The notes beneath the pieces are model-generated. The model made no database searches, was not told the origin of the DNA, and was given only the letters and a program-made list of their open reading frames with translations. Shown piece by piece: positions 41,341-49,114 of a stretch of 64,000 nt of DNA; within the stretch, counting starts at the first letter, position 1; each line of letters opens with the position of its first letter. Source of the stretch: Pseudoalteromonas denitrificans DSM 6059 (lineage in GTDB: Bacteria > Pseudomonadota > Gammaproteobacteria > Enterobacterales > Alteromonadaceae). Both the position numbers and the translations under genes were made by a program. The stretch lies in NCBI RefSeq assembly GCF_900112265.1, contig NZ_FOLO01000002.1:180205-244204 (forward strand), read 5' to 3'.

Positions 41341-43464
41341 GTGCAAGCAATTATTAAAAAATTTCAATTAGGTCAACACGAAGTAACCCTAGAAACGGGT
41401 GCAATTGCACGTCAAGCATGTGGTGCTGTATTAGCAAGCATGGGTGATACATCAGTTTTAGTAACTGTTGTTGGTAAGAAAGATACAAAACCAGGTCAAG
41501 ATTTTTTCCCATTAACTGTTAATTACCAAGAGCGTATGTATGCTGCAGGTCGTATTCCAGGTGGCTTCCTTAAGCGTGAAGGTCGTCCAAATGATGGCGA
41601 AACATTAATCGCACGTTTAATTGACCGTCCAATTCGTCCATTATTCCCAGAAGGTTTCATGAACGAAGTACAAGTTATTGCAACAGTTGTATCTTCAAAC
41701 TCTGAAATTCAACCAGATATTTTAACTATGATTGGTACTTCAGCGGCACTTGCCATCTCAGGGATCCCATTTAATGGTCCTATAGGTGCATCTCGTGTTG
41801 GTTATGTAGATGGTCAATATGTATTAAACCCTTCTGTTACAGAATTAGAAAACAGCCAATTAGATTTAGTTGTTGCTGGTACTGATAACGCAGTATTAAT
41901 GGTTGAATCAGAAGCCGATGTATTACCAGAAGACGTAATGTTAGGTGCTGTTGTATATGGTCATGAACAAGCTCAAGCTATCATTACTGCAGTAAATGAG
42001 TTTAAAGCTGAAGCTGGCAAACCTACTTGGGACTGGACAGCTCCAGAAAAAAATGTTGTTTTAGCAGATAAAATTGCCGCGCTTGCAGAAGAGAAAATCG
42101 GTGCAGCTTATTTGATTACTGATAAAGTAGCACGTAAAGATGCAATCAATGATACTAAAGCGCTAGTGATTGAAACGTTAACAGCTGAACTCGCAGAAGA
42201 TGAAAAGTTAGATACTCAAGAAGTGGGTAAACTTTTAGGTTCACTAGAGAAGAAAACAGTTCGTGGTCGCATTATTGCTGGTGAAAAACGTATTGATGGT
42301 CGAGATCCTGCTTCTGTTCGTGCTTTAGATGTTAAAACTGGTGTACTCCCACGTACTCACGGTTCTTCAATCTTTACGCGTGGTGAAACACAAGCACTAG
42401 TGACTGCTACTTTAGGAACAGAAAGAGATTCTCAGCTAATTGATGACCTTTTAGGAACGCAAAAGAATCACTTCATGCTTAACTATAACTTCCCTCCTTT
42501 CTGTGTAGGTGAAACTGGTTTTGTTGGGTCTCCTAAACGTCGTGAAATTGGTCACGGTAACTTAGCAAAGCGTGGTATGAAAGCAGTAATGCCAACGTTA
42601 ACTGAATTCCCATACTCAATTCGTGTTGTATCAGAAATCACTGAATCAAATGGTTCATCTTCAATGGCTTCAGTGTGTGGTTCTTCACTTGCACTTATGA
42701 ATGCGGGTGTACCAATTAAAGCATCTGTAGCAGGTATTGCTATGGGTCTTGTTAAAGAAGACGAAAACTTTGTTGTCCTTTCAGATATCTTAGGTGATGA
42801 AGATCACTTAGGCGATATGGATTTTAAAGTAGCGGGTACTCAAGGTGGTATCACTGCATTACAAATGGATATCAAAATTGAAGGTATCACGCAAGAAATT
42901 ATGCAAATTGCTTTAACGCAAGCAAAAGCAGCACGTTTACACATACTTACAGTGATGGACGAAGCGATTTCAGCTCCTTCTGAAGAATTATCTGAGTTTG
43001 CTCCTCGTATCTACACTATGAATATTCCACCTAAGAAAATTGCTGATGTAATCGGTAAAGGTGGTGCGGTGATCAGAGCATTAACTGAAGAATTCGGCAC
43101 AACTATCGAAATCGAAGATGATGGCACAATAAAAATTGCTGCAACTGATGGTGCAAGTGCACGTGCTACAATCGAGCGTATCGAACAAATCACTGCAGAG
43201 CTTGAAGTTGGTACTATCTACAATGGTAAAGTTGTACGTATCGTTGATTTTGGTGCGTTTGTAAATGTACTTCCGGGTAAAGATGGTTTAGTTCATATTT
43301 CACAAATCTGTCAAGAGCGTGTAAATAATGTTGCTGATCACCTTAAAGTTGGTCAAGAAGTTAAAGTTAAAGTTGTTGAAGTTGACCGCCAAGGCCGTGT
43401 TCGCTTAAGCATCAAAGAAGCGATGGCTCCTGCAGCACCAACAGAGGCTCCTGCAGCTGAATAA
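41341..43464 (+). CDS. pnp: Polynucleotide phosphorylase
   Basis: A 3'-5' phosphorolytic exoribonuclease and degradosome component, 707 residues. Two RNase PH-like domains surround an all-alpha linker, with [16 protein letters not shown] in the second. A KH domain ([20 protein letters not shown], near 560) and an S1 domain (about 620-690) follow. The start is GTG at 41341, with AAGGA 7 bases upstream. Probably autoregulated through the leader hairpin. Confidence 0.97.
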
Positions 43465-43490
43465 TTTGAGTTAAGCTTAAATTAAAATAA

Positions 43491-43514
43491 AAAAGGGGCT
43501 TGGCCCCTTTTTTA
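43491..43514 (+). terminator. Terminator after pnp
   Basis: A 9-bp stem AAAAGGGGC/GCCCCTTTT with a TTG loop, followed by T residues. Confidence 0.87.
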
Positions 43515-43628
43515 TTACCCGATCATAATTTGCATTAATTAATCTAATTGGTTTAATTGAACTAAAAGAATAGGCTATACTCTTAAGAGTACTTCCCATT
43601 TAATCGGTTATGACAGTTAAGGAAATCG

Positions 43629-44531
43629 ATGCAATTAAAAAAATTACTTTTAGGTGCTTTTCTAGGGCTTAGTTTAGCAGCTTGTCAATCGACACCAGAA
43701 AAACAAGATTTACCTGTTGTTAATGTTGCTTTCACAACACCGCTGGAATCAAATGCGCGAAGTGAGCTGGCAATTGCGCGTTACAGTGAATTGCTCTACC
43801 GTGCTAATTTAACAAATGAGCAAAAAGCACAACTATATTATGATCGAGGGGTACTGTTTGATAGCCTAGGCATGCAAACTTTAGCATGGATTGACTTTAA
43901 TCGAACGATAAAACTGAAACCAGATTTACCCGAAGTATATAATTTTTTAGGTATCCATCTCACTTTAAGGCAACAATATACCAAAGCATATGAGATGTTT
44001 GATTCTGTTTTAGACTTAAAGCCAAAACATGAATATGCTTATCTTAACAGAGGCATTGCATTATATTATGGTGACAGAGCTCAGTTAGCTAAATCAGATT
44101 TTACTACGTTTTTAGAATATGCACCTGATGATGCATATCGTGTGGTTTGGCTTTATTTAGCTGAACAAGCAATCTCAAAACCAGAAGCCGTTAAACACTT
44201 AAAACAGCATGCAAAAAAACTTAACTCTGATAACTGGGCTTATCAACTTGTTTCTTTATACAGTGGTGAATTAAGTGAAGAAGACTTTTTAGCTGGCTTA
44301 GATAAAAATGTAGGTAATCAACAACAATATGCAGAGCGTTTGTGTGAAGCTTACTTTTATTTAGCTAAGCAATATCAATATGCAGGGAATAACCTCAGAG
44401 CTGCGGAATACTTCAAATTGGCTTTAGCAACTAATGTCCATGAATTTGTTGAATATAAATATGCTAGGCTCGAACTTCAAGTATTGCAAAATGAAGCGAT
44501 GGCTTTAGAAGCTGCAAAAATAGTACATTAA
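43629..44531 (+). CDS. nlpI: TPR lipoprotein NlpI
   Basis: An outer-membrane lipoprotein that in E. coli serves as an adaptor for murein hydrolases and the protease Prc. The lipobox LSLAAC ends at C19. TPR units are visible from residue about 60 (AQLYYDRGVLFDSLGMQTLA, then DLPEVYNFLGIHLT and HEYAYLNRGIALYYGDR). Length 300, against 294 in E. coli. It follows pnp as in E. coli. The next gene begins directly after its stop (TAA-ATG). Confidence 0.92.
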   Translation: MQLKKLLLGAFLGLSLAACQSTPEKQDLPVVNVAFTTPLESNARSELAIARYSELLYRANLTNEQKAQLYYDRGVLFDSLGMQTLAWIDFNRTIKLKPDLPEVYNFLGIHLTLRQQYTKAYEMFDSVLDLKPKHEYAYLNRGIALYYGDRAQLAKSDFTTFLEYAPDDAYRVVWLYLAEQAISKPEAVKHLKQHAKKLNSDNWAYQLVSLYSGELSEEDFLAGLDKNVGNQQQYAERLCEAYFYLAKQYQYAGNNLRAAEYFKLALATNVHEFVEYKYARLELQVLQNEAMALEAAKIVH

Positions 44532-46115
44532 ATGCCAAATTATTTTGAGATAAAGCCGAAGCATTTGCTTCGGCTTTTATTTTTGGCTGTGATCCTTATT
44601 AATATAAAACCATTTAATTTATCGGCATATTATATTAATGATAGGGCCTTAAATACTTCAATAATTCAAAAGCAAACTGCTATGCATTCAATGAATGAGT
44701 CTATGTCTAGTCTTCGTTATTTAGCATCTATCAATAATATAGATGCGATGAATTTATTGGCTCAAAGATATGAAATTCAAAAGAGTTACTTATTAGCCGA
44801 AAAACTTTATCTTAAAATAATTGTTCAAACAAAGAATAAAAATGCTAAAAAAATTGCACGCAAAAACTTATTTACATTTTATAAAAAAAATCAGTTGTGG
44901 AAAAAAATAGATTATTTTCTAAATGAAGATGATCCTAAAGATTGGACTTATTTATCTCAACTACATAACTCTCAACTGTTAACTGCATTGGCTCAAGAAG
45001 ATGTAATTGACCTTACCCAAAAGAATATTTTGACTGTAGGAGTTGACTTTGTTAGTTCTGTTAAACAATTAGATGTAGATAATATGTGTAAAGTTAATAT
45101 TGTGCCTGTTGCACGTAGCTACTCTAGTTTGACTCAATCTATTAAGCAAATCTATTCATTCTCAAAACATCCCTTCTTATCTGGTTTACCTATATGTTTT
45201 ACAAAACCCCTGTATATAAATAAATCGAAATTACCTTGTTTAGAAAATGTAAATTCAGCAATAAAATGTGATTTTACTCAGTTAGCACAAATATCTGATT
45301 GGCCTGATAATATTCGTCATTTAATGGTAATAGCTGAAGGAGGTAAAGCGAATGTTCATCAAGGAGTAATGTATTTAGCGAATGAGTCTGGTTTTAATGT
45401 ATTTAAGCACGAGTTTATGCATTTGTTTGGTTTTGATGATGAATACGAAATATCAAAATCAAAGCAAAAAAAACGGTGTAATCTAAATGCTTTAAATTTG
45501 AGATACAGCCAACTCACTTTAAAAAGAAATACTGAAGTACGGTTTAAAAATTTGAAACCCGTTGCAAGTTGTAACGGTAGTAAAATAAAAGCTTACAAGC
45601 CAGTAAATGAATTAACTTTAATGCAGTATTTAGATAAGGGGTTACCCAAAAAGTATCAAATTAAACTGACTAAAAATATAAATAAATATTTATCTATGTT
45701 TCCTGTCTTTGCCATGAATTTTGCGCAATCGACTAAAACGCGTTTTTGGTATTTATATGCCGCTAAACTCGGGTTTAAAGGTGCTTTAATTCAAGTCGCT
45801 TTATTAAAAGAAGCAGAAGGCAATATCACAACAGCTATTAAACTACTAGAACAATCAGGTGATTGGCCATTGGCGCAGTCAAATTTAGCACGCTTGTATT
45901 ATGAGCAAATGCAATATAAAAAAGCACGTAAATACTTTTTATTGGCCAGTACAAAGTCCTTAGATAGTTTTGCACAATACTTTTATGGCAAAATGTTATT
46001 TAACGGGCAAGGGGGCAAGACTGACAAAGAGGCTGCAATGCACTACTTTAAGTTATCTGCAGCACAAAATAACCCTTTGGCGATGAACTATCTGAACAGT
46101 ACCCCAGTATTGTGA
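44532..46115 (+). CDS. Putative exported metallopeptidase with Sel1/TPR-like repeats
   Basis: A 527-residue protein I cannot place in a named family. A hydrophobic N-terminus (about residues 11-30) is a signal anchor or signal peptide. The central part holds a zinc-protease signature, H293-E294-x-x-H297-x-x-G300-x-x-D303, followed by E304-Y305, which resembles the M64 (IgA-peptidase-like) HExxHxxGxxDEY pattern. Several cysteines (C186, C222, C236, C246, C316) fit an oxidising periplasm. The C-terminal 120 residues form TPR/Sel1-like repeats (QSNLARLYYEQMQYKKARKY, then YGKMLFNGQGG). It starts right after the nlpI stop, so the two are coupled. Peptidase activity is inference. Confidence 0.65.
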   Translation: MPNYFEIKPKHLLRLLFLAVILINIKPFNLSAYYINDRALNTSIIQKQTAMHSMNESMSSLRYLASINNIDAMNLLAQRYEIQKSYLLAEKLYLKIIVQTKNKNAKKIARKNLFTFYKKNQLWKKIDYFLNEDDPKDWTYLSQLHNSQLLTALAQEDVIDLTQKNILTVGVDFVSSVKQLDVDNMCKVNIVPVARSYSSLTQSIKQIYSFSKHPFLSGLPICFTKPLYINKSKLPCLENVNSAIKCDFTQLAQISDWPDNIRHLMVIAEGGKANVHQGVMYLANESGFNVFKHEFMHLFGFDDEYEISKSKQKKRCNLNALNLRYSQLTLKRNTEVRFKNLKPVASCNGSKIKAYKPVNELTLMQYLDKGLPKKYQIKLTKNINKYLSMFPVFAMNFAQSTKTRFWYLYAAKLGFKGALIQVALLKEAEGNITTAIKLLEQSGDWPLAQSNLARLYYEQMQYKKARKYFLLASTKSLDSFAQYFYGKMLFNGQGGKTDKEAAMHYFKLSAAQNNPLAMNYLNSTPVL

Positions 46116-46324
46116 TGCTTTTATTTAAGGCTAATTCATATAACTGAATTAATGTATTTTTAACTTAAGTTTATCTTTAGCTTATCAATAAGTTAATTTT
46201 TGAGCGAGAGAACCTTTATTTGTGATATTTAGTTAGAATTGACGTTTATTCACTATTCTAGCTGGGGTTATAAATGATATGATTTCAGAGATTTGAACTT
46301 CAATTTTGGAAATGAAATATACAA

Positions 46325-49114
46325 ATGGCTTTGCTATGGATCCCTTTATTATCTTTACTAGCTAGCATTATAGCGTCTGTAACTGGTAGCTTGAACCGAA
46401 CTGTGAGTGCCTGGTTAACTGCAATTATGCCCGCAATTGCACTGGCAATTGCAATTTATTATACACCGGCTATTTTTTCTGGTGAAACTTTGCTGTATTC
46501 ACTTGAATGGCTCCCGGCTATAGGCATTAGCCTATCTTTCAGGCTTGATGGTCTCGCACTATTATTTGTTTTTATGATCTTAGGTATAGGTTTGTTAGTG
46601 ATCCTTTATGCCAGGTATTACTTAAGCGAAAATGATTCTATGGCTAAGTTTTACGCATTTTTAATGTTATTTATGACTGCGATGTTAGGAATTGTTTTAT
46701 CTAATAACATTCTTCAGCTTTGGGTTTTTTGGGAGTTAACAAGTGTAAGTTCATTTTTATTAATTAGTTTTTGGTGGCATCAGTCAAGTGCAAGAAAAGG
46801 CGCGCGAATGGCACTTGCTGTTACAGGTGCAGGAGGCTTAGCTCTATTGGCAGGGTTAATCATGCTGGGTAATATTGTTGGCAGTTATGACCTTTCAGTT
46901 GTCCTACAAAGTGGTGATTTAATTAAAAGTCATGCTCTTTACCCTGTTACTTTAGTGTTAATTTTGTTAGGTGCATTTACTAAATCGGCACAATTTCCAT
47001 TCCACTTTTGGTTACCTCACGCTATGAGTGCTCCTACCCCTGTGAGCGCATACCTACATTCAGCTACTATGGTAAAAGCTGGAATTTTTTTATTAGCACG
47101 TTTTTATCCTGCTTTAGCTGGTACTGAACTTTGGTTTTTAATTGTAGGTTTAACGGGGTTGGCCACTTTACTACTAGGTGCTTATATTGCTTTATTTAAA
47201 CATGATCTAAAAGGTCTATTAGCTTATTCTACAATAAGTCATTTAGGTTTAATTACTTTGTTATTAGGTTTAGATACGCAACTGGCTGCGGTTGCCGCCA
47301 TTTTCCATATTATAAATCATGCAATTTTCAAAGCTTCATTATTTATGGCTGCGGGCATAATAGATCATGAATCAGGCACCCGTGATATGCGTAAATTAAA
47401 TGGTTTATTTAAGTTTATGCCTTATACGGCAACACTTGCTATGGTTGCATCAGCCTCTATGGCAGGTGTGCCTTTATTGAACGGCTTTTTATCCAAAGAG
47501 ATGTTTTTTGCTGAAACGCTGCATCAACAAGTACTAGGATCTATGTCTTGGTTAATTCCTGTGCTAGCAACATTAGCTGGTGTTTTTGCCGTAGCGTATT
47601 CGGCACGGTTTATTCATGATGTATTCTTTAATGGTAAGCCAATTGGGTTAACTAAAATGCCTCATGAACCGCCTAGGTATATGCGAGTACCTGTTGAAAT
47701 TTTAGTGGCGCTTTGTATTATTGTTGGCGTAGTACCTAATTTTGTTGTTGATGGTATTTTGACATCAGCATCAATTGCTGTAGTAGGCCATGCACTACCT
47801 GAATATAATTTAGCAATTTGGCATGGGTTTAACTTACCTTTACTCATGAGCTTTATTGCTGTTGTATTAGGTTTATTTGTATATACGCAGCGTAAACACT
47901 TTTTTCAATTTCAAGCCTCTTTACCAAGTATTGATGCAAAGGCTTGGTTTGAGCTATGGGTTCAAACCTCGGTAAAATTTAGCTCTAAATTTATAAACTC
48001 TATTGAGAATGGTTCATTACAAAGATATATATTTTTGTTCTTATTAAGTGTGCTTGTATTAGCTGGTTTACCATTATTTGATATGATCCAACTTGCTGGC
48101 TCAGAAAGTTTAATGCCAATTTCTCCACAAAACGCTGTTGGTGCAGGTCTATTAATTGCGGGCGCATTGGCAACTATCATTTGGCATAGAGTACGTATTG
48201 TTTCATTGATAAGTATTTCAATTGTAGGCTTGATGGTTTCAGTGGCATTTACTCGCTTTTCTGCTCCAGATTTGGCACTAACACAACTTATTGTTGAAGT
48301 GGTTACTGTTATATTATTAATGCTAGCCTTATTCTTTTTACCACAGAAAACACCGAAAGAGTCGAGTTCTCCTCGCATTTTAAGGGATTTAGCGATAGCT
48401 TCTAGCATAGGTGTTGTTGTTGGAAGCATCTGTTATGCCATGCTTACACGGCCTTTATCGTCGATATCTGACTTCTTTTTAGCGAACGCTAAGACGGGCG
48501 GTGGAGGCACCAATGTTGTTAATGTTATTTTGGTTGATTTTAGAGGTTTTGATACCTTAGGAGAAATTACTGTTTTAGGCATTGCTGCATTAGGTATCTA
48601 TAAGCTTTTGGCAAACTTGCCATTATTTATGCCATCTAGTGATGGAGAAGGGAGGTTATGGGCAAGAGAGCGCCACCCAATATTACTAGCTAGTGTTTCG
48701 CAAAGCTTATTACCTTTAGCTTTATTAGTATCGGTATATATTTTCTTAAGGGGTCATAACCTTCCCGGTGGTGGGTTTATTGCTGGTTTAGTTACCGCAA
48801 CTGCATTTATTTTACAATATATGGCACATGGTTCTCAGTGGGTTTCATCTCGGTTTGATGCTAACTACAGAAAAATAATCGCTTCAGGTATTTTAATTGC
48901 TTTAGCCACTGGTGTTGGCAGCTGGTTTTTCAATCGTCCATTTTTAACAAGTTGGTTTGAATATTTTAAAGTTCCGCTAGTAGGAAAGGTTGAACTTGCC
49001 AGCGCAATTGCATTTGATTTAGGTGTTTATATTACCGTGGTGGGTTCTACTTTAATGATTTTGGCAAGCCTAGGAAAGCTGACTATCGCGACAGAGCCAA
49101 AGGAGAATAATTAA
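46325..49114 (+). CDS. mnhA: Mrp-type Na+/H+ antiporter, fused A and B subunits
   Basis: A large membrane subunit of the Mrp/Mnh multisubunit Na+/H+ antiporter, 929 residues. The N-terminal part is homologous to the proton-pumping subunits of complex I, with [31 protein letters not shown] and [18 protein letters not shown]. The C-terminal 250 residues correspond to MnhB ([19 protein letters not shown]), so A and B are one polypeptide, as in group 2 Mrp operons. It is the first of six overlapping genes. Confidence 0.93.

Follow-up and report, generated by a model that had tools for sequence, protein, structure and literature searches.

The gene downstream of nlpI

The window analysed here is a stretch of 64,000 nucleotides from Pseudoalteromonas denitrificans DSM 6059. 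It contains nlpI (43629..44531; this and all further features are on the + strand), which encodes a TPR lipoprotein adaptor. This ORF scores 355 bits with the NCBIfam equivalog model for NlpI (NF008391, cut-off 250), and a lipobox (LAAC) can be seen in its sequence. The ATG of the next gene abuts the TAA of nlpI (gap 0); this gene (44532..46115) codes for a protein of 527 amino acids, which we describe as an NlpI-linked igalysin-like metzincin, by prediction. The ORF directly behind the nlpI stop and its HExxHxxGxxD-E-Y signature, as reported in the preliminary description of this DNA, are present, and 146 relatives, one per genome, retain the motif. Promoter-like sites between 43400 and 46450 were found at chance level (14 versus 12.9).

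The protein begins with a putative signal peptide (residues 1-32, 44532..44627), recognised by eye from K8, K10 and R14 followed by a hydrophobic stretch at approximately residues 15-25. TPR/Sel1-like helical repeats are predicted for residues 58-155 (44703..44996), where the AlphaFold2 model has helices, with low confidence beyond residue 132; the N-terminal part of the family profile A1 matches Sel1/TPR structures. The predicted metzincin catalytic domain comprises residues 176-402 (45057..45737). It includes the zinc motif HEFMHLFGFDDEY (residues 293-305, 45408..45446), so that the glutamate assigned earlier as E294 is the correct residue, and a putative Met-turn with M364 (residues 361-366, 45612..45629), which hhalign aligns with the Met-turn of M64. 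The C-terminal part (residues 404-522, 45741..46097) would consist of Sel1-like helical repeats: the whole-protein model has paired helices across approximately this region, and Pfam reports a single Sel1 repeat at residues 480-514 with 30.2 bits, slightly below the PF08238 cut-off of 30.7. The Sel1-like tail is real in the window protein, as described before, but it is found in few relatives: more than 100 residues follow Y375 in only 6 of 146 members, the window protein among them. Besides this repeat, Pfam gave weak TPR matches and no peptidase family for the window protein.

The gene pair is conserved throughout the Alteromonadaceae

The initial protein search covered 295 genomes of the order and matched 36 of them: the window's own genome, 23 genomes of the same family (matching residues ~175-400) and 12 of other families, which matched with the Sel1 tail only. 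All 23 same-family matches are located directly 3′ of nlpI. Profile A1 (mean column identity 25%) was built from the same-family matches of the window protein and matched 147 of 147 family genomes and 52 of 52 genera; three of these matches, in G313, G328 and G367, were rejected, because the catalytic-domain profile (A2; mean column identity of its alignment 19%) finds no nlpI-linked gene there. Altogether, the protease gene is present in 146 of 149 genomes of the GTDB family Alteromonadaceae, including two (G214 and G224) seen only in the initial protein search, and the three genomes without it are 81-85% complete.

In all 145 testable family genomes nlpI is located upstream on the same strand; one genome (G375) was left out of this count because its gene runs to the contig edge. 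The coupling to nlpI is therefore far stronger than could be known from the single locus described before. The distance between the two genes is zero or negative in 52 of the 145 pairs, 1-20 nt in 59 and 21-100 nt in 32, such that 111 pairs are at most 20 nt apart. Only two gaps are larger, 278 nt in G319 and 332 nt in G377, where an apparent frameshift divides the gene. Because overlap length depends on which start codon is the first possible one, the longest overlaps, which reach 263 nt, are probably artefacts of start assignment. There is no selection for a particular reading frame of the protease gene with respect to nlpI: the gap is a multiple of three in 47 of the 145 pairs. No ORF matching both nlpI and the protease, that is, no gene fusion, was found in the family loci examined.

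A contig search with the A1 alignment returned 176 relatives, while the same search with the single window sequence returned none. The best 80 of the 176 are from named organisms such as Alteromonas, Pseudoalteromonas, Paraglaciecola, Rheinheimera and their kin, and all 80 have nlpI upstream. These loci were recovered via the motif itself and are therefore not counted as evidence of motif conservation; they were used for the A2 profile and for the analysis of the right-hand neighbours. The gene mrpA lies 3′ of the protease gene in four named Pseudoalteromonas loci, in the window and in four genomes of the same genus. In the whole set of 184 loci, some of which are copies of one genome, the longest ORFs within 900 bases to the right of the protease gene fall into 27 clusters (41, 39, 19, 17, 17, 11 and fewer loci), 13 with at least two loci and 14 singletons; the ORFs of two large clusters, one with 39 and one with 17 loci, are on the opposite strand. 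Linkage on the left together with a variable right flank suggests that nlpI and the protease gene stay paired while the other side is exchanged.

Outside the family the gene was hardly found. In 148 genomes of the order the A2 profile matched ten, all of the same family, and at E 0.001 gave no match in the 138 genomes outside it. A class-wide A2 search of 369 genomes returned three family genomes with strong matches and four marginal hits outside the family (E 6e-5 to 8e-4). Two of these (L183 and L184) were rejected as other HExxH proteins by eye. The other two (L182 and L185, from other families of the class) are long ORFs with HExxHxxGxxDEY, which might be distant relatives or due to chance. 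NlpI itself is much more widely distributed (82 of 109 genomes of the order). Of the nlpI loci outside the family, the 24 with the best scores have right-hand ORFs that start with other sequences, as judged by eye; at one of them (L313), nlpI overlaps by 4 nt with an ORF that resembles by eye a NagZ-type hexosaminidase, which would be another wall-related neighbour. Plasmid records contained no match to the protease. Two loci on viral contigs matched: L320, an IMG/VR contig with both nlpI and the protease gene, is probably misassigned and chromosomal, and L321 was discarded as a match of 31 residues around the motif only. The nlpI-linked protease could be assigned to neither a Pfam nor an NCBIfam family, and the open-access PubMed Central papers listed by our searches include none on the gene. 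A protease family that forms a fixed gene pair with nlpI across the whole family is real.

The serine protease Prc was found in 57 of 59 sampled genomes, the two misses being genomes of 81% and 85% completeness. The metzincin therefore adds to Prc and does not replace it.

Catalytic residues and cysteines are conserved, the repeats are variable

With one ORF per genome, all 146 sequences have H293, E294, H297, E304, Y305, C316 and C347, and HExxH is accordingly conserved in every one of them. Position 303 is Asp in 145 sequences and Glu in one (DEY 145, EEY 1). Position 300 is Gly in 137, Asn in two and another residue in seven. The nine members with a replaced Gly300 (L153, L171, L174, L175, L177, L277, L281, L283 and L285; examples of the motif are HEIAHWLQLYDEY, HELAHFAFFAEEY and HEFLHIFRFMDEY) retain the H, E, H, E and Y residues. 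Position 364, likely that of the Met-turn methionine, is Met in 89 sequences, among them the window protein, and Leu in 57. At position 362 all 146 have T, S, N, H or G, and none has Cys.

Six cysteines are conserved in the family. C236 and C246 are absent together in ten genomes of four genera; for this count G334 was regarded as a misalignment and G375 as a fragment. Their joint loss fits a disulfide bond and thus an oxidising compartment, and its confinement to ten genomes of four genera suggests few independent events. Lipobox-like sites were found in 12 of 146 sequences with a loose regular expression, of which approximately nine are convincing by eye; in relatives of a few genera a lipobox replaces the plain signal peptide, and the next residue is Gln, Val or Lys in some.

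The helical repeats are located in front of C186, which is preceded by a median of 215 residues (range 40 to 312, a contig-end fragment aside). They vary in place and length, and a fixed docking surface for NlpI is therefore not obvious. A separate observation concerns the genus of the window: one of its genomes (G244) encodes an 824-aa Sel1-rich, lipoprotein-like ORF (L176:1730-4204) with the motif HELMHMFHFDDEY, a paralogue of the domain that has no nlpI within 7 kb.

The predicted fold is that of a metzincin close to the igalysins

The whole-protein model reached a pLDDT of 74.5; the catalytic domain alone, modelled with 118 sequences, reached 91.7 with a pTM of 0.89. A Foldseek search of the PDB with the domain model gave seven matches below E 0.001, all of them M64 proteins (9qdi: E 7.1e-6, probability 1.00, TMq 0.60; IgAse 9qdh: E 2.9e-4), and the first entry of another kind was an archaemetzincin at 0.081. 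With the whole protein, TPR proteins dominated the Foldseek output and no match reached E 0.001; searching with the domain alone resolved the matter. VIA-align likewise placed seven M64 rows first (Z 10.5-13.6; IgAse entries 10.5-10.7), the best of which is 9qdi, a moderate match (Z 13.6, rmsd 4.2, 204 aligned residues, 11% identity). Rows 8-50 comprise snake-venom metalloproteinases, ADAM/ADAMTS, TACE and ulilysin (Z 7.7-8.7, ~150 residues). With the whole protein M64 was again first (Z 13.3), followed by TPR proteins at 11. As far as checked, the predicted domain can be aligned to solved metzincin structures over the motif, which gives no sign of a fold that places the three ligands apart.

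At the sequence level the relationship is more distant. Searching the PDB sequences with a profile for the domain gave no entry at E up to 10, and the Pfam family for M64 (PF09471) did not match the window protein at E up to 10; eight of 24 family members match it (best E 0.019), none reaching the cut-off. When four M64 proteins (alignment A3) were aligned by hhalign to the family domain profile, the probability was 93.4 and E 2.5e-7 over 113 columns, and the alignment runs through DEY, the next Asn, YKP and the Met-turn. The comparison with 15 M6 proteins gave a probability of 89.0 and E 2.3e-6, with only 28 columns around the motif. A search for M64 proteins in the window's own genome (G000) found none. 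In the family, the A2 hit in the incomplete genome G313 (L287, E 9.2e-5), picked from sequence, is an M64-like protein (HEFGHHFAGLADEYY) and not the nlpI-linked gene.

According to PMC12237041, igalysins are defined by an extra residue before the Gly together with Asp as the third ligand. Across the M64 clusters described in PMC12402451 the motif is HEXXHXXXGXXD, except that two clusters have Glu in place of Asp and one lacks the residues. In the nlpI-linked family five residues separate the second His from DEY/EEY in 146 of 146 sequences, which is the ordinary metzincin spacing; the extra residue is absent throughout, and we therefore call the family igalysin-like and not M64. A structural zinc with Cys as the first Met-turn residue is seen in IgAse and may not hold in all M64 proteins. 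On the strength of the model, the nlpI-linked protein is a metzincin whose nearest relatives are the M64 igalysins, and it belongs to an igalysin-like family of its own. Its earlier designation as a putative metallopeptidase is strongly supported by the predicted fold and the invariant catalytic residues. The designation as M64-like holds for the fold, M64 structures being the best matches, but not for the spacing, which is HExxHxxGxxD against HExxHxxxGxxD in igalysins.

A terminator-like hairpin in the signal-peptide codons

Codons 7-16 of the window gene contain a hairpin that resembles an intrinsic terminator (44552..44577), with 11 pairs and a loop of 4 nt, followed by TATTTTT; it might act as an attenuator. 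The terminator scan of 43400-46450 gave four terminator-like sites, compared with 1.7 in shuffles, and folding of the hairpin region gave −23.7 kcal/mol (z −5.36). A search for the 10-base arms joined by any 4-base loop gave a single site both in the window, with up to three mismatches allowed, and in the genome, with exact matching. The element seems to be a transcription stop signal inside the export-signal codons of the protease gene, as in about a quarter of the family.

One junction per genome was scanned over 130 bases after the nlpI stop. Terminator-like hairpins were found at 33 of 145 junctions, compared with 8 of 127 at the nlpI 5′ end and 1 of 145 inside the protease gene. Relative to the first possible start codon, as labelled automatically, 23 lie after it, three across it and seven before it; six of the latter belong to genes that start within the end of nlpI (negative gaps) and the seventh to G377. 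Synonymous shuffling without change to the protein, done 60 times per junction in the longest open frame and with codon weights taken from the G+C content, gave an expectation of 1.15 hairpins against the 33 observed. A second scan, which allowed one mismatch and is not nested with the first, found 49 of 145 against 2.97 expected. A few of the 33 may be weak chance products. The stricter scan found no hairpin at the other 112 of 145 junctions, and four genomes of the window's genus have none by either scan; attenuation is therefore not general.

The hairpins are of at least three unrelated kinds, of which that of the window is one. The kind GAGCTTG...CAAGCTC-TTTTT is present in all members examined of six genera (4/4, 4/4, 3/3, 3/3, 4/4 and 4/4 in the second scan), in some members of others (1/3, 1/2, 1/3 and 2/3) and in none of five genomes of genus g103. 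The kind AAAAGCC(A/G)GC... was found by the first scan in seven genomes, six of them close in sequence and one (G372) a variant, and is located in codons that start lipoprotein signals.

Covariation was analysed with fourteen GAGCTTG-kind hairpins of equal length. In this set 98.4% of the cells are paired, a percentage that is partly due to construction, since the hairpins were picked by the scan; the synonymous-shuffle test is not affected in this way. Double-change cells numbered 21, compared with 6.6 in the shuffles, and the covariation was 0.427 against 0.217 (sd 0.024), with 0 of 500 shuffles as high; the signal collapses in slid controls. Two of the five measures were weaker: pairs changed on both sides (6 versus 3.5; 9 of 500 shuffles) and further pair types (15 versus 12.4; 15 of 500).

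A possible second NlpI-linked protease

We propose that the gene encodes an active, exported zinc metzincin that is expressed together with NlpI and probably works with it, its dose being lowered through translation-coupled attenuation in genomes that have the hairpin; we assign this reading a probability of roughly 0.5. NlpI would be translated first, and ribosomes finishing at its stop codon would re-initiate at the adjoining start codon of the protease gene. Their passage across the signal-peptide codons would melt the terminator hairpin that would otherwise end the transcript, resulting in a smaller, NlpI-coupled protease output in those lineages that have the hairpin. After export, disulfides might stabilise the catalytic domain. 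By analogy with IgAse, zinc would be held by His293, His297 and Asp303, with Glu294 activating the water and Tyr305 assisting. The helical repeats might dock NlpI, the substrate or both, and the protease would reside near the outer membrane on the periplasmic face, where it could trim or degrade envelope proteins with NlpI as a partner. Several findings count against this proposal: the Leu at the Met-turn position in 57 of 146 sequences, the hairpins at the nlpI 5′ end (8 of 127), the only moderate M64 match, and the comparison with M6, for which the hhalign E value is low as well, though over 28 columns only.

The protein might also be an active envelope protease that shares the nlpI transcript for reasons of expression only, without any link to NlpI. 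Physical linkage is all that is observed, the repeats vary in place and length, and the hairpin would allow different expression levels for the two genes. However, the linkage was found in every testable genome, across ~50 genera, despite the variable right-hand neighbour, and we consider a mere sharing of the transcript unlikely, if a serious competitor. The suggestion of the preliminary description that the protein is an NlpI client or partner is plausible from this gene linkage.

The junction hairpin in turn could be the terminator of nlpI, overrun by the start of the next gene and of no regulatory use, which would be compatible with the other readings. Apart from a weak site inside nlpI, the scan of 43400-46450 gave no other terminator-like site on the + strand. 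Yet it sits in signal-peptide codons that the exported protein needs, and it is kept with compensatory changes in related genera, which makes an idle terminator doubtful.

Another class of substrate would be the cell wall: the domain might cut wall peptides as a cross-link endopeptidase, one more hydrolase recruited by NlpI. As reported in PMC7049810, E. coli NlpI binds several classes of peptidoglycan hydrolases. In the account of PMC12402451, however, BF3526 and the T. ramosa IgAse are peptide or protein peptidases that prefer proline at the cleavage site, and none of the best 50 VIA-align rows is an entry named as a wall hydrolase; a role in wall cleavage is thus improbable. A pseudo-protease scaffold whose metzincin fold only binds would accommodate the Leu at the Met-turn and the nine replaced Gly300 residues, but is very improbable in view of H, E, H, E and Y being kept in 146 of 146 sequences at mean column identities of only 25% and 19%.

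The proposal of an active metzincin working with NlpI bears on the adaptor itself. Peptidoglycan hydrolases and Prc are known to use NlpI as an adaptor, and its near-universal neighbour in this large family of marine bacteria encodes a predicted protease of another class. This suggests a second NlpI-linked protease beside Prc and raises the questions whether NlpI serves two proteases and which envelope proteins the second one would control. Somewhat short of even odds stands the broader version, a second protease arm throughout the family with a metzincin on NlpI beside Prc, whose dose would be set in several lineages by a dual-coding attenuator, based on at least three unrelated hairpins. If true, a terminator within the codons of a signal peptide would set the stoichiometry of adaptor and protease in a compact manner, and through the dual-coding attenuator the amount of protease would depend on translation coming from the adaptor gene upstream.

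Comparison with known systems

The best fold matches are the M64 igalysins BF3526 of B. fragilis (9QDI/4DF9), BACOVA_00663 of B. ovatus (3P1V) and IgAse of Thomasclavelia ramosa (9QDH). The nlpI-linked family shares with them Asp as third ligand, followed by Glu-Tyr, and a profile alignment that extends to the Met-turn. It differs from them in that the Gly comes one residue earlier (HExxHxxGxxDEY) and the first Met-turn position is never Cys; it also has six conserved cysteines and helical repeats, adjoins nlpI and scores below the Pfam cut-off for M64. The structurally studied igalysins are from gut bacteria, and the nlpI-linked family provides a chromosomal branch close to them. With M6 proteins (immune inhibitor A type) the family shares the HExxHxxGxxD spacing, and eight of 24 members have a weak NCBIfam M6 match (best E 8e-4), but the hhalign match is limited to 28 columns around the motif.

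Among adaptor-protease pairs, LbcA-CtpA of P. aeruginosa is described as a lipoprotein with an envelope protease, as proposed here. Prc and CtpA are carboxyl-terminal-processing serine proteases, whereas the nlpI-linked protein is a zinc metzincin by prediction. BepA is a member of the M48 family, not a metzincin, and is not known to be linked to nlpI. As described in PMC7950410, BepA of E. coli is an envelope metalloprotease joined to TPR repeats, as is predicted for the window protein. In E. coli, NlpI is described as a lipoprotein of the outer membrane to which hydrolases bind and which delivers MepS to Prc (PMC7049810, PMC11211486, PMC5686067). The NlpI-Prc pair (PMC5686067) thus combines an outer-membrane lipoprotein adaptor with an envelope protease, the arrangement that we propose here from the genes for NlpI and the metzincin.
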